Shown here: one piece after another, positions 45,653 to 52,789 of the stretch | Layout of the letters: the number at the start of each line of letters is the position of its first letter | Position numbering within the stretch: position 1 is the first letter of the stretch | Assembly: GCF_901827185.1 (NCBI RefSeq) | Contig: NZ_LR594671.1 | Location: 3,472,001-3,536,000 of the forward strand | Origin: Variovorax sp. PBL-E5 | GTDB taxonomy: Bacteria > Pseudomonadota > Gammaproteobacteria > Burkholderiales > Burkholderiaceae_C | DNA: 64,000 bases | Reading direction: 5' to 3' | Made by a program: the position numbers and the translations under genes | The notes under the pieces: generated by a model | What the model saw: the letters and a program-made list of their open reading frames with translations, nothing else | Database searches by the model: none | What the model was told of the DNA's origin: nothing

Positions 45653-46702
45653 ATGTCCGAACAATCCAGCTCCCCGACCTCGCGCGCGAGCGCCGGCAAC
45701 GACGCACGCCGCGATGCCGGCGCTATCACCGATGTCGCCGGCATCGAGGTCGGCCATTTCAGCGACACGCGCCGGCCGACCGGTTGCACCGTGATCATCG
45801 CGCGCGACGGCGCCGTGGGCGGCGTCGACGTGCGCGGCGCGGCGCCCGGCACGCGTGAGACCGACCTGCTCGCACCGGGCAACCTCGTGCAGCAGGTGCA
45901 TGCCGTGATGCTGTCCGGCGGCAGCGCCTGGGGACTGGCCGCGGCCGACGGCGCGATGCGCTGGCTGGAAGAGCGCGGCGTCGGCCTCGACGTGCGCTTC
46001 GGCACGCTGCCGATCGTTCCTGCGGCCGTGCTCTTCGATCTGCCGGTCGGCGATGCGCGCATCCGGCCCGATGCGGCGGCCGGCTACGCGGCCTGCAAGG
46101 CGGCATCCCGCACGGCGCCGGCCGAGGGCAATGTCGGTGCCGGCAGCGGCGCGCTGGTGGGCAAGCTCTTCGGCCTGCATCGCGCGATGAAGGGCGGCAT
46201 CGGCAGTGCATCGGTCACGGTGAACGGTGTCACGGTCGGGGCGCTGATCGCTTGCAATGCGCTCGGCGACGTCATCGATCCGGACACGGCCCAGGTCGTG
46301 GCCGGCGCGCGCACCGAGGATGGCCATGCCCTGCTCGACACGCGCCGTGCTCTCTTGCGCGGCGACCTGCCCAAGCCTCTCCTGGCCGGCACCAACACCA
46401 CGATCGGCGTGATCGCGACCGATGCGGCGCTCACCAAGGTGCAGGCCAATCGCCTCGCGACCGTCGCGCACGACGGGCTGGCACGGGCCATCAACCCGGT
46501 CCACACCATGAGCGACGGCGACACGCTGTTCGCGCTCGCCACCGGCCGAGTGCGGCTCGAAGGCGATGCGCCGGGCATGACGGTGCTGAGCACGATGGCG
46601 GCCGAGGTGGTGGCGATCGCGACAGTGCGCGCGGTGCGGGCGGCGCGATCGGTGCGGATTGGGGAGAGCTACTTTCCCTGCGCATCCGATTGCCCGCCAT
46701 AG
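45653..46702 (+). CDS. P1-family (DmpA-like) aminopeptidase
   Basis: The protein has 349 aa. The self-processed Ntn-hydrolase family S58/P1 has its nucleophile in AGTNTTIGVIATDAALTK (cleavage before a Thr). ITDVAGIEVGHFSDTRRPTG and the motif GNLVQQVHAVMLSGGSAWGL are typical. It releases N-terminal or beta-amino residues, depending on the member. It has no signal peptide and starts 37 nt after the transporter gene, perhaps on the same transcript. Confidence 0.88.
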   Translation: MSEQSSSPTSRASAGNDARRDAGAITDVAGIEVGHFSDTRRPTGCTVIIARDGAVGGVDVRGAAPGTRETDLLAPGNLVQQVHAVMLSGGSAWGLAAADGAMRWLEERGVGLDVRFGTLPIVPAAVLFDLPVGDARIRPDAAAGYAACKAASRTAPAEGNVGAGSGALVGKLFGLHRAMKGGIGSASVTVNGVTVGALIACNALGDVIDPDTAQVVAGARTEDGHALLDTRRALLRGDLPKPLLAGTNTTIGVIATDAALTKVQANRLATVAHDGLARAINPVHTMSDGDTLFALATGRVRLEGDAPGMTVLSTMAAEVVAIATVRAVRAARSVRIGESYFPCASDCPP

Positions 46703-46711
46703 AAGCCGCTT

Positions 46712-47071: not shown

Positions 47072-47088
47072 TCAATGACCCGATCGGG
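47072..47088. promoter_or_regulatory. Copy A of a 17-nt motif shared with the GG-peptide promoter
   Basis: TCAATGACCCGATCGGG here is the exact reverse complement of 51016-51032. It covers the last codons and stop of the leftward LuxR gene and is about 140 nt upstream of the zinc-ribbon gene. Copy B contains a perfect 16-bp palindrome, while here the palindrome has one changed end. It may be a regulator-binding site or a remnant of a shared insertion boundary. Confidence 0.4.
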
Positions 47089-47854
47089 GAAATTGACGCA
47101 CGGTAGATATTTTGTTAACTCCGGCATCAACCAATGACAGAAGATGCGCGAGCTCCGTTCGATTGCGCACGCCCACCCTTCGCATCAGAAGCGCCAACTG
47201 GCGCTTGACTGTCTCGGCACTCTTGCAGAGCAGCCGGCCGATCTCTTTGTTGGTCTTGCCTTGCAGCACCCAGCCAGTGATCGCGTGCTCCGCAGGTGTC
47301 AGTGCCTTCAGAACAGCAGCCCAATCGGCCGCCTCCGCCGCGCCTCGACGAAGGCCGCTCAACGCAGCGTGGACATGCGGCATCACCTTGCGCTGAAGGA
47401 AGTGGCGATGCGATTCCGGGACCGGCTTCACGTCGTAAAACGCCGCGGTCGTCAAAAGCAGTTCCTGACCTTCGCCTTCGAAGTGCGCAAGCCCCAGCAA
47501 GTTTCGCCAGCCCGTGCTTCGGAAGCTGGCGAGCCAGGCACCGTCGATCTCGGGCACGACGTGGTCGACGGCGAAATATTCAGGTTCCCCACTTCGCATC
47601 AGGCGCGTCTGGATCGGACTTCGCAGATTGCCGCCCGCACACTCGATCGCTGCCAGATACGTCGAAGGCACGCCGAAGCTCCATAGCTGGATCGCAGCAT
47701 ACCCTCCGGAATGGGCGACCGACTGACCGCACAGCATCGCCCGATGAGGCAGCACGGCCTGGAGCGGCCCATCCACCCATGTCTTCAGCGACTCGGCATC
47801 GACAACGTGACGGACGCTGCCAGCCAGAACGTCCTCAGTCGTTTCGGTTTTCAT
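47072..47854 (-). CDS. LuxR-family transcriptional regulator, EpsA-like
   Basis: The protein has 260 aa. The C-terminal GerE helix-turn-helix is LTPAEHAITGWVLQGKTNKE then SAETVKRQLALLMRRVG. The N-terminal 180 residues have no receiver Asp. Their pattern SLKTWVDGPLQAVLPHRAMLCGQ resembles the EpsA regulators that accompany XrtB/PEP-CTERM exopolysaccharide systems. The start at 47854 has GGGAG about 7 nt upstream. No exosortase gene is in the window. The last codons contain motif A. Confidence 0.83.
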   Translation of the reverse strand: MKTETTEDVLAGSVRHVVDAESLKTWVDGPLQAVLPHRAMLCGQSVAHSGGYAAIQLWSFGVPSTYLAAIECAGGNLRSPIQTRLMRSGEPEYFAVDHVVPEIDGAWLASFRSTGWRNLLGLAHFEGEGQELLLTTAAFYDVKPVPESHRHFLQRKVMPHVHAALSGLRRGAAEAADWAAVLKALTPAEHAITGWVLQGKTNKEIGRLLCKSAETVKRQLALLMRRVGVRNRTELAHLLSLVDAGVNKISTVRQFPRSGH

Positions 47855-47969: not shown

Positions 47970-49373
47970 ATGCCCCGATCCATCCGCCTCTTCCTCCTCA
48001 CGATCCGCGACCTGGTCGCCTCCGCCGGGCCGATCGTGTTCATCGCCATCGGGCTGCTGGTCGCAGCCTACTGGTGGCTGGACCCGCAGCCGCCCAAGCG
48101 CGTGACGCTCGCGACCGGGCCAGCGGGTAGCGCCTATGCGGAGTTCGGCAAGCGCTATGCGAACGCGCTCAAGGCGAACGGGATCGAGGTGGATCTGAAA
48201 CCCACGGACGGCTCGCAGGACAACCTGCAGCTGCTGCGCGACGGCAAGGCCGACGTCGCCTTCGTGCGCGGCGGCAGCGCCGATCCGGTGAAGGACGAGG
48301 AGGCCGGCCTGACATCGCTCGGCAGCCTGTTCTACGAGCCGCTCTGGTTCTTCTATCGCACCGATGCGGCACGCAAGATCGATCGCAAGACCGCAACGCT
48401 GAACTCGCTCACGCAGCTCAAGGATCTGCGCGTCAACGTCGACAAGCCCGGCAGCGGCGTGCCGGACATCATGGATCGGATGTTCCGTGCCAACCACATG
48501 GACCCGCAGGCGCTGCAGCTGTCCAACCTCGAACAGACGCCGGCCACCGAAGCGCTGCAGGCCGGCCTGCTCGACGTGGTGGTGCTCGCCTCGGCGCCGC
48601 AGTCGCCGCTGGTGCAACGCCTGCTGCGTGCGCCCGACATCCAGCTGATGGATTTCGGCCAGAGCGATGCCTATTCACGCCGCTTCGCCTTCCTGCAGCC
48701 GGTGACGCTGCCGCGCGGCGTGGTCGATCTGGCGGCCGACCTGCCGCCGCACGACGTGTCGCTGCTGGCCGCGACGACCTCCCTGCTCGCGCGCGAACAG
48801 ACCCATCCCGCGCTGCGCCAGCTGTTCGCGCAGGCCGCGCAGACGCTGCACGGCGATGCCGGCTGGTTCAATCGCGCACGCGACTTTCCCAACACCCGCA
48901 CCAGCGAGCTGCCGGTCAGCCCCGAGGGCGATCGGGCCATCAACGGCACGCCGCCCTTCTGGCAGCGCTACCTGCCCTTCTGGGCCAGCAACCTGATCGA
49001 ACGCATGTGGCTGGTGCTCGGCGGCTTGCTGGTCCTGATGCTGCCGCTGAGCCGCGTGGTGCCGCCGCTCTACCAGTTCCGCGTGCGCCGGCGCGTGTTC
49101 CGCTGGTATGCGCGGCTGCGCGACGTGGAGCACAAGCTCGATGCGCACGAGGGCGACCGCACATCGCTGCTCAAGGAACTCGACCACCTGGACCACGTGG
49201 TCAACAGGGTCGTCGTGCCGCTCTCGTATGCCGAGGAGCTTTACGCTTTGCGCAACAACATCCACACGGTCCGCAAGCGCGTCGCGGCAGCCTTCTCGCA
49301 AACGAATCCGGATCCTGACGAGCTCTCTTCCAAAACGGGCCCCCGCATCGCGGCGCTCAAGGACACGAATTGA
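47970..49373 (+). CDS. Membrane-anchored TAXI-family solute-binding protein
   Basis: The protein has 467 aa. An N-terminal helix (IVFIAIGLLVAAYWWL) anchors a periplasmic TAXI domain (VTLATGPAGSAYAEFGKRYA to about residue 325). A second helix (MWLVLGGLLVLMLPLSRVVP, about 350-370) follows, and then a cytoplasmic helical tail of about 95 residues. Free TAXI binding proteins lack the second helix and tail. There is no TRAP permease next to it. GC content is normal for the window, unlike the flanking patches. The end overlaps the convergent lipoprotein gene by 17 nt. Confidence 0.85.
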   Translation: MPRSIRLFLLTIRDLVASAGPIVFIAIGLLVAAYWWLDPQPPKRVTLATGPAGSAYAEFGKRYANALKANGIEVDLKPTDGSQDNLQLLRDGKADVAFVRGGSADPVKDEEAGLTSLGSLFYEPLWFFYRTDAARKIDRKTATLNSLTQLKDLRVNVDKPGSGVPDIMDRMFRANHMDPQALQLSNLEQTPATEALQAGLLDVVVLASAPQSPLVQRLLRAPDIQLMDFGQSDAYSRRFAFLQPVTLPRGVVDLAADLPPHDVSLLAATTSLLAREQTHPALRQLFAQAAQTLHGDAGWFNRARDFPNTRTSELPVSPEGDRAINGTPPFWQRYLPFWASNLIERMWLVLGGLLVLMLPLSRVVPPLYQFRVRRRVFRWYARLRDVEHKLDAHEGDRTSLLKELDHLDHVVNRVVVPLSYAEELYALRNNIHTVRKRVAAAFSQTNPDPDELSSKTGPRIAALKDTN

Positions 49374-50169
49374 TCCTCTGCCCAGACTCTCTCGTCTGCG
49401 CCTCCAGCATGGAGCGGACGGAATCGTCGATCGGCAAAGCGACGACCGTGACACCGAAGTCGTCCTTGGCCCGGCGCAGATAGGCCTCGCTGCCGTATCC
49501 CGCCGGCAGCTCTACATGGCAGACGCCAAAGAGTTCCAGCCCCTGGCGGTCGTATGTCCACAGATGCCCGAGATAAGTCGGCTCCTGGCCAGCGCGCGTG
49601 AGGTATTCGCTGACACCGGTCGACAAGTAGAAGCTCTTCTGCATCGGGCGCAGGGCCTTGCTATATCGGTAGTCGGCCAGCTTGGCAGCATCCTCGCTCA
49701 GCGCCCTCTCCTGATTCGACAAAGGGCTCCCGAGCCTCAACTTCTCCTCGATCATCGCGTACTGCAGATCTCTTTCCCTGAAGTTCTTTTGCTCCGCGCC
49801 GCCGTGCCAGGCAACCACACCCGGCGAGAGGACGATCTTTTTTCGGGCGCCAATGAAGACATAGTTCGCACAGCTCGACAAGCATCGCTTCTCGATCTGA
49901 ATCGTGATTCCCTTGGCGTTCAGCCACGTTCCCAGTCTGATCGCCGCAATAGGCTCACCGCCCACGGAGTCGATGACCAACTTGGTGATATCCCTCGAGC
50001 CGACCTGTTCGAAAAAACGCTGAACCGATTGCTCCGTGATCAGTCCATCGAAGCTCGCAACACCATCGCCTGCCGTGCGAGAGTGGACGTCGAGCTGACC
50101 GCAGCCACTCGCAGCCCCGAGGATAAGGACCGCGATCACGAACCTGCGGCACAGTCTATGGGATGACAT
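49357..50169 (-). CDS. COG3904-like ClpP-fold lipoprotein
   Basis: The protein has 270 aa. A signal peptide ends with LGAASGC (Cys22), so it is lipid-modified. The ClpP/crotonase-like part shows IDSVGGEPIAAIRLGTWLNAK, then Ser in RCLSSCANYVFIGA and His in VVAWHGGAEQKN, as in the SDH-type Clp-fold proteins of COG3904. A helical region and ELPAGYGSEAYLRRAKDD follow. Predicted role: periplasmic or outer-membrane-side protease-like factor. It overlaps the small membrane protein gene by 14 nt in the same direction. Confidence 0.7.
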   Translation of the reverse strand: MSSHRLCRRFVIAVLILGAASGCGQLDVHSRTAGDGVASFDGLITEQSVQRFFEQVGSRDITKLVIDSVGGEPIAAIRLGTWLNAKGITIQIEKRCLSSCANYVFIGARKKIVLSPGVVAWHGGAEQKNFRERDLQYAMIEEKLRLGSPLSNQERALSEDAAKLADYRYSKALRPMQKSFYLSTGVSEYLTRAGQEPTYLGHLWTYDRQGLELFGVCHVELPAGYGSEAYLRRAKDDFGVTVVALPIDDSVRSMLEAQTRESGQRINSCP

Positions 50170-50461
50170 GCACCGAAGTCTGTGTCTTTTTATCGCGGAA
50201 GACGATATCGAATTTTCGATAGCGCCTCGACAACGTGTACCGCAATGCGAGCAGGTGTCCGGCCAGCCCGGCGATCCATCCAATGACAGCGCCGGAAAGC
50301 CTTATCCGATCGGTCGAAACGCCGCCTATGAATTCACCAAAACCCAGGAGAGCCCCAAGTGCCGAGGCCAATGCGATGAAGACCGCTCCTGCGAACAACG
50401 AGGACAGCAGGAGTACGAGCCATACAGTCATCAGCCGCGGCCAAGTCAATTTTGATTCCAT
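50156..50461 (-). CDS. Small two-helix membrane protein, candidate accessory/immunity protein
   Basis: The protein has 101 aa. Two hydrophobic stretches: MTVWLVLLLSSLFAGAVFIA extended to about residue 35, and LSGAVIGWIAGLAGHLLALR near residue 60. The C-terminal part is polar and basic (YTLSRRYRKFDIVFRDKKTQ). The region is clearly AT-rich (about 43% GC at 50161-50220). It is encoded between the GG-peptide and the Clp-fold lipoprotein, all leftward, so a shared transcript is likely. No family recognised. Confidence 0.6.
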   Translation of the reverse strand: MESKLTWPRLMTVWLVLLLSSLFAGAVFIALASALGALLGFGEFIGGVSTDRIRLSGAVIGWIAGLAGHLLALRYTLSRRYRKFDIVFRDKKTQTSVHVIP

Positions 50462-50557: not shown

Positions 50558-50932
50558 TCAGGGGCCGTCGCCGCCTGGATTTGGATCGCCCATCTGATTG
50601 CTTCCCGGCAAGGAAGGCGGGTCGCCGAGTACGCCACAGATTCCGTTGACGACCGCATTGCACGCGATGGTCGCCATCTGTCCAGCGATGTTTCCGAGCG
50701 TAGCGCATGAAGCCGGGGTCGTTCCTTCTGTCGCCGCGTTGCAGGCAGCGGCAGCGGCTGCGGCCGCTGCCGCACCCGTCGCGGCACATGCCGCGGAGGC
50801 GCTGCATGAACTATCGCCGTCTCCGCCCCCGTCATCGCCTCCAGATACCAGCAGCAACTCTTCGTCGGACAGCAGCCGGAACATTCCGTAGCGTTCGGAG
50901 AGCATTTCCTCGGTGTGCCTGCTCATTTGCAT
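50558..50932 (-). CDS. Double-glycine leader peptide precursor, Ala-rich with six cysteines
   Basis: The protein has 124 aa. The N-terminal 32 residues end in LLSDEELLLVSGG, a double-glycine leader recognised by C39-peptidase ABC exporters (bacteriocin/microcin class II type). The core of about 92 residues begins DDGGGDGD, contains a ten-alanine run and six Cys (about 43, 49, 64, 76, 91, 99), and ends in a Gly/Pro/Asp tail. GAGGAG lies 5 nt before the first ATG (50932). It is followed by the small membrane protein and the lipoprotein. No exporter gene is in the window. The core matches no bacteriocin I know. Confidence 0.72.
   Translation of the reverse strand: MQMSRHTEEMLSERYGMFRLLSDEELLLVSGGDDGGGDGDSSCSASAACAATGAAAAAAAAAACNAATEGTTPASCATLGNIAGQMATIACNAVVNGICGVLGDPPSLPGSNQMGDPNPGGDGP

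Positions 50933-51127: not shown

Positions 51128-52789
<1,662 letters not shown>

Follow-up and report, generated by a model that had tools for sequence, protein, structure and literature searches.

A probable class II microcin-like peptide precursor without a detected C39 exporter in Variovorax

Introduction

Class II microcins are encoded as a set that consists of a precursor with a double-glycine signal, an immunity protein, a C39 exporter, a fusion protein and TolC (PMC10233263; PMC9746304). Their cores have a size of about 5-10 kDa, are glycine-rich and usually neutral or anionic, and the 15 known microcins to which the abstract of that source refers all come from Enterobacteriaceae (PMC10233263). 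Microcin V, with the C39 exporter CvaB and the fusion protein CvaA, represents the class II (IIa) microcins and serves here as comparison system (PMC10233263; PMC9746304). Two other described loci carry double-glycine peptides. Moraxella McbC, encoded in the operon mcbABCI, has a double-glycine leader with extra residues in front and a core with little similarity to other proteins; a small unique immunity gene adjoins, and exporter genes are part of the operon (PMC2761928). The nap island of Neisseria gonorrhoeae was acquired horizontally and includes double-glycine peptides, a C39 peptidase gene, a regulator and an immunity-like gene; the naps are short and cationic, act in autolysis and use a different transporter (PMC11798529).

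Among the open-licence literature we found no paper on double-glycine peptides of Variovorax. The accessible part of PMC10946135 describes no such peptide in this genus, and in a 2026 screen that dealt with plant-associated Pantoea, Erwinia and Xanthomonas the main text, as far as available, does not mention Variovorax (PMC13174018). Here we analyse a double-glycine precursor, P0001, in Variovorax sp. PBL-E5, its neighbouring genes and its relatives in the genus. The whole stretch of DNA analysed, 64,000 nucleotides long, is referred to as the window.

Results and Discussion

P0001 encodes a leader and an anionic, cysteine-containing core

The open reading frame given in the preliminary description was confirmed and assigned to the minus strand, which had been left unspecified (Table 1). 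Its 124 codons translate into a 32-aa leader, ending in SDEELLLVSGG (LSDEELLLVSGG, LLSDEELLLVSGG), and a 92-aa core that starts with DDGGG and has a run of ten Ala. Cys occurs six times in the core, at positions 11, 17, 32, 44, 59 and 67. The leader ending, the approximate core length, the Asp/Gly start, the Ala run and the number of Cys had been described correctly from the letters. The core has no Lys or Arg and eight Asp/Glu, with a computed mass of 8195 Da, a pI of 4.05 and a G+A+S fraction of 0.50. Absence of Lys and Arg is common to all five known cores and was found in none of the 3,035 stretches of 92 aa in 11 other window proteins.

Table 1. Features of the P0001 locus in the window.
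Feature	Position	Strand	Basis or remark
P0001, double-glycine precursor, 124 aa	50558-50932	minus	leader 50837-50932, core 50561-50836; translation and relatives
Conserved C-terminal stretch of P0001, SNQMGDPNPGGDGP	50561-50602	minus	N-x-MGDP...GP common to three relatives
GAGGAG ribosome-binding site of P0001	50938-50943		5 nt upstream of first ATG
P0003, 101-aa hydrophobic membrane protein, candidate immunity protein	50156-50461	minus	hydropathy; position after peptide gene
P0002, ClpP/SppA-like protein	~49357-50169	minus	predicted fold; by eye, a putative lipoprotein signal
TAXI-type gene	47970-49373		NMT1_3 by Pfam
LuxR-type regulator	~47072-47854	minus	GerE domain; start taken at MKTETTED
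Zinc-ribbon-like protein, 85 aa	46712-46969	minus	named from CxxC pairs; no Pfam match
Junction	46703-46711	.	S58-peptidase and zinc-ribbon ORFs 9 nt apart; L077 has HlyD and C39 exporter genes there
S58 peptidase	45653-46702		
ettA	51128-52789		ABC protein with ABC_tran_Xtn by Pfam; gene name assigned in this analysis

P0001 is the sole ORF in the window that matches a strict leader pattern, and 60 dinucleotide shuffles of the window gave two such ORFs altogether, a count that is illustrative because the pattern was widened after its first version had missed P0001. The leader and C-terminus conserved in relatives (see below) are stronger evidence for the gene than this count. A large protein search with P0001 returned no homologue at E<=1 and not the query itself either, whereas P0003 and P0002 were returned by the same type of search; the gene predictions behind that database thus probably lack P0001. 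Scans of the peptides and their neighbours with NCBIfam, Pfam and PADLOC gave no informative match for the peptides, so that the search against double-glycine family models proposed earlier yielded nothing for P0001 in NCBIfam and Pfam.

The ends of the peptide are conserved in three Variovorax relatives

Relatives of P0001 were identified by a C39-domain scan of 101 genomes of the genus and reading of the regions found; two strong matches were located less than 4 kb from weak P0001 matches. Related peptide ORFs are present in three Variovorax genomes, G003 (locus L073), G008 (L076) and G122 (L077), near the same TAXI-type and ettA genes. When 61 genomes were searched directly with P0001, 52 had matches at E<=1, most of which reflect composition. 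The gene context shows the matches in G003 (E 0.0066) and G008 (0.07) to be real, and a match at 0.057 in the own genome pointed to the second ORF described below.

The alignment (A2) shows a common leader, E-L-x-L-V-x-G-G, and a common ending, N-x-M-G-D-P...G-P (NxMGDPxxxGP). For leader residues 17-32 of P0001 the score against G003, G008 and G122 was reached by 0, 0 and 0 of 2,000 shuffles, which establishes the conserved leader-GG junction on which the first interpretation depended. The corresponding numbers for the C-terminus are 1, 0 and 2, and for residues 33-108 they are 7, 354 and 43. According to these tests both ends are homologous, and the similarity of the middle ranges from weak to no better than composition; it is not wholly unrelated, since the G003 core aligns somewhat better than expected by chance (7 of 2,000). 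The number of Cys varies from two to six among the peptides of the relatives.

A profile of the five known ORFs (A6) found only its own five source ORFs in the 101 genomes. The A2 profile matched the own genome only when run against 349 genomes of the family, with limited sensitivity as at most 12 candidates were scored per genome. A DNA pattern for the C-terminus occurred in six of 101 genomes, three with the peptide family and three in unrelated frames; it misses G122, whose tail differs.

Outside the window, the own genome has a second ORF with a double-glycine leader (L105, 1047-1385, plus strand). It encodes 112 aa with an acidic Cys/Gly start, begins with TTG, has no obvious ribosome-binding site and is followed by a hydrophobic reading frame. 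The leader is shared with P0001 (score reached by 2 of 2,000 shuffles), as is the acidic start; the C-terminus is not (1,277 of 2,000). By its sequence this ORF is only a candidate for a second double-glycine peptide of this genome.

The locus has a variable layout between conserved flanking genes

As described before, two genes follow P0001 in the same direction; these are P0003 and P0002, and the ATG of P0002 lies within P0003, which gives the two genes an overlap of 14 nt. The order in L076 is ettA, TAXI-type, LuxR-type, small membrane protein, peptide, ClpP-like, HlyD and C39 exporter; the L076 stretch examined showed no S58 peptidase. L077 shows the order S58 peptidase, exporter, HlyD, zinc ribbon, peptide, small membrane protein, LuxR-type, TAXI-type, dehydrogenase and ettA, and L073 the order S58 peptidase, partial LuxR-type match, exporter, HlyD, zinc ribbon, two ClpP-like genes, peptide, TAXI-type, dehydrogenase and ettA. 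The dehydrogenase gene of L073 and L077 we take, from reading, to be a predicted sugar dehydrogenase.

The identity of the window proteins to their counterparts in the relatives is 86% for the S58 peptidase, 86% for TAXI, 98% for ettA, 56% for LuxR (to L077) and 61% for the zinc ribbon (to L073). Taking two relatives' operons each, identity is 53-56% for the LuxR-type regulator and 56-66% for the zinc ribbon. Both genes take the side of the TAXI-type gene that they also take in L077, and the equivalent place contains no exporter, HlyD or L077-type peptide; P0001, P0003 and P0002 are located across the TAXI-type gene from them. The genes flanking the junction between the S58 peptidase and the zinc ribbon are conserved. 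The G+C content is 0.516 for the zinc ribbon, 0.549 for P0003 and 0.596 for P0002, compared with 0.673 for the window and 0.643 for P0001; the lower values of the accessory genes are as expected for an acquired cassette.

A zinc-ribbon profile matched three of the 101 genus genomes, which are the three it was built from and all have the double-glycine peptide family. Scanning genome contigs with the zinc ribbon gave two Variovorax records and one short match in a Clostridia record.

Exporter genes adjoin the peptide gene in the relatives, and no C39 exporter was found in this strain

C39 and HlyD exporter genes adjoin the peptide gene in all three relatives. The L076 exporter is unbroken, its C39 domain scores 113.9 bits and has the stretches QTEAAECG, HFVV and DPAHG, and the HlyD of this locus was confirmed by Pfam. 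Frame breaks are present in the exporter of L077 and in both exporter and HlyD of L073; sequencing error and decay cannot be told apart here.

A genome-wide C39-domain search of the own genome, as had been proposed, revealed no C39 exporter; the sole C39 domain found is part of an RHS-repeat protein. This protein (L035, 6005-11227, plus strand, outside the window) has 1,740 aa and carries the C39 peptidase domain in its N-terminal part. When the own genome was searched with the L076 exporter, all matches among those listed began at query residue 131 or later, past the greater part of the C39 domain. At eight of these matches the N-terminal 200 residues of the ORFs showed no C39 domain by eye, with some of the frames possibly wrong; the genome-wide domain search is the test to rely on. 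In the window HlyD had no match, and the exporter matched ATP-binding domains only. Since no C39 exporter was found genome-wide, P0001 has no evident processing exporter in this strain. Of the secreted-peptide system suggested in the preliminary description the double-glycine precursor therefore stands, and in the relatives it comes with exporter genes, but a system of this kind was not found here.

P0003 is a candidate immunity protein

P0003 was reported as a two-helix membrane protein. The gene is present and its product hydrophobic; the helix number is approximate, as hydropathy shows one long and one short hydrophobic stretch. A small membrane protein is encoded near the peptide gene in the window, L076 and L077, and in L073 there is only a weak match a few kb away. 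The large protein search with P0003 found P0003 itself only, and the small membrane proteins of the relatives did not match that of the window. This dissimilarity fits co-variation and is not proof of immunity. Judging from position and hydropathy, P0003 is likely to be the immunity protein.

Another Variovorax genome, G005, has kept a LuxR-type gene and a small membrane protein (L116, 8410-9865, plus strand). In the surrounding 19.5 kb no peptide, HlyD or exporter of the P0001-locus kind was found, and by its gene content the locus looks like a retained lone immunity gene.

P0002 has a predicted ClpP/SppA-type fold

The structure model of P0002 has a pLDDT of 82.9. SppA is the best Foldseek match (E 1.8e-6) with a poor overall superposition (TM ~0.4, rmsd ~13), and ClpP chains follow at E ~1e-4 with a TM of up to 0.60 by target length among the matches listed. 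The sequence profile weakly favours ClpP (23 of 24 weak matches, best E 0.025). P0002 has five homologues with 35-43% identity in the large protein search. S97 and H121 are invariant, and GG and Ser...His motifs are conserved. Pfam and NCBIfam gave no match. P0002 thus resembles SppA/ClpP serine peptidases in its best Foldseek matches and conserved motifs and differs from them in superposition and family matches. The earlier label of a Clp-fold protein holds as a predicted SppA/ClpP-like fold with conserved Ser and His, for which a peptidase function is putative.

P0002 and the ClpP-like proteins of the relatives' operons align with an hhalign probability of 92.8 (E 3.9e-7, 91 columns). A ClpP/SppA-like gene is located beside the peptide gene (L073, L076) or one gene away (window) in three of the four loci near ettA; the G122 operon has no ClpP-like gene. 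A profile of the operon version had a match in 90 of 101 genus genomes, and only three copies are part of peptide operons (two in G003, one in G008; 349-406 bits), which are the rows the profile was built from. It did not match P0002 at E<=1e-5, and its match in the own genome is elsewhere. From these searches the ClpP-like family is mostly not tied to peptide loci, and a role in the peptide system is only suggestive. P0002 alone is no marker of such a system, since no double-glycine peptide was seen next to its relatives outside the genus (L036, L037, L038). One of these, from another family of the order (L036, 6904-7704, minus strand), is located between ORFs of 1,909 aa and 712 aa, which from reading we take to be alpha-2-macroglobulin-like and pbpC-like, respectively.

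The family resembles class II microcins

The preliminary description stated that the core matches no known class. This has to be revised, because the leader, the size, the anionic Gly/Ala/Ser-rich core, the small membrane protein and the relatives' C39 and HlyD genes fit class II microcins as outlined in PMC10233263. P0001 has the double-glycine signal and, with 92 aa and 8195 Da, a core of the required size and composition; a C39 exporter with catalytic residues was not found in the own genome and is unbroken in one relative. The family shares with microcin V and its class the double-glycine leader (about 15 aa in two relatives), the Gly/Ala-rich anionic core of 8-10 kDa, possible disulfides, the nearby small membrane protein (window, L076, L077) and, in the relatives, C39 exporter and HlyD (PMC10233263; PMC9746304). 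It differs from that class, as far as described there, in the core end NxMGDPxxxGP, the beta-proteobacterial host, the LuxR-type genes, the zinc-ribbon and ClpP-like genes of some loci, the missing similarity to the family models searched and the lack of a C39 exporter in the window genome. With McbC the family shares the double-glycine leader preceded by extra residues, a core with little similarity to other proteins, exporter genes (in the relatives) and, with P0003 as candidate, a small unique immunity gene; with the nap island it shares double-glycine peptides, a C39 peptidase gene (in the relatives), a regulator, an immunity-like gene and a putatively acquired locus. Compared with McbC the P0001 core is rich in Cys and Ala, anionic and free of Lys and Arg, and the window has no exporter (PMC2761928), and the naps differ in their length, charge, function and transporter (PMC11798529).

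The agreement of the parts with the class II microcin set leads us to regard the family as microcin-like bacteriocins, with an orphan in the window. It is reasonably probable that P0001 is a class II microcin-like bacteriocin precursor, orphaned here without a C39 exporter and accompanied by a candidate immunity gene. In the relatives, the gene content suggests that the C39 domain of the exporter would bind the leader and cut after Gly-Gly, and that the anionic Lys/Arg-free core would leave through the exporter, HlyD and a TolC-type channel. By analogy with microcins, the released peptides would be antibacterial, with P0003 as likely immunity protein in the window; the LuxR-type protein probably controls the locus, and the ClpP-like protein may be an accessory at some step. 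The core appears to change fast, while leader and C-terminus stay fixed, and the constant C-terminus may be needed for a step common to all members, for example receptor recognition. In this strain P0001 is probably not secreted in the canonical way; the missing exporter would reflect loss, and the orphan is probably a relic or a reserve cassette.

Whether the window copy is still made bears on an appreciable minority reading, in which it is a decaying, non-functional relic from which nothing is made. The own genome without C39 exporter, the exporter genes broken in two relatives, and the second double-glycine ORF with its TTG start and no obvious ribosome-binding site are in line with decay, but P0001 itself is open, with a good ribosome-binding site in front, and the overlapping genes P0003 and P0002 are likewise open, as are the zinc-ribbon and LuxR genes. 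The LuxR-type genes that occur within or next to the locus in the window and in G008 and G122 (near the G003 locus the match is to an HTH only) could also mean that P0001 is a secreted signal, a pheromone read via the neighbouring regulator, and no bacteriocin. We regard this as unlikely, as the peptide is, at about 100 aa, long for a pheromone, the central part of the core has diverged strongly among sister species, which would not be expected of a signal that fits a single conserved receptor, and in G005 the regulator and the membrane protein are retained although no peptide was seen. Post-translational modification at Cys, Ser or Thr followed by export, as in a lanthipeptide or similar RiPP, would agree with the double-glycine leader and the six Cys; it is very improbable given that no modification enzyme was found among the neighbouring window proteins scanned and that the Cys number varies across the relatives. 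The chance that P0001 is an accidental Ala-rich reading frame and no gene is practically negligible: its low-complexity core and the search that returned neither homologue nor query point that way, and the conservation of both ends in relatives with the same neighbouring genes, together with the strong ribosome-binding site, argues strongly against it.

A more elaborate version of the microcin-like reading, which we consider distinctly doubtful, is a genus-restricted, fast-diversifying system in which a periplasmic ClpP/SppA-like protease acts on the peptide, either as degradative immunity at the producer surface or in a second maturation step that uses the NxMGDPxxxGP tail. It draws on the position of the ClpP/SppA-like genes near ettA and on the window strain, which has kept peptide, membrane protein and ClpP/SppA-like gene and not the exporter.

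A family of this kind, beta-proteobacterial and built of conserved ends around an interchangeable middle, would broaden the rules for microcin searches and would help to explain why such peptides are missed by sequence searches. The complete locus, the broken-exporter loci, the orphan precursor and the lone immunity-like gene would form a natural series within one genus for the gain and loss of bacteriocin loci.

Other double-glycine reading frames occur next to C39 exporters of the genus

In the C39-domain scan, 62 of the 101 genus genomes had a match; nine matches exceeded 116 bits, eight of them in frames of at least 700 aa. Three of these nine strong exporters come with P0001-type peptides and two (G132, G123) with other double-glycine ORFs; for the other four a pattern search gave no convincing double-glycine ORF nearby. 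ORFs of other types with a double-glycine leader adjoin C39 exporters in L071 (7866-8282, plus strand) and L078 (8065-8508, plus strand). One has a Gly/Ala/Cys-rich core, and the other has a longer, mixed core and a leader that scores 14.9 bits against TIGR01847, with a cut-off of 15.7.
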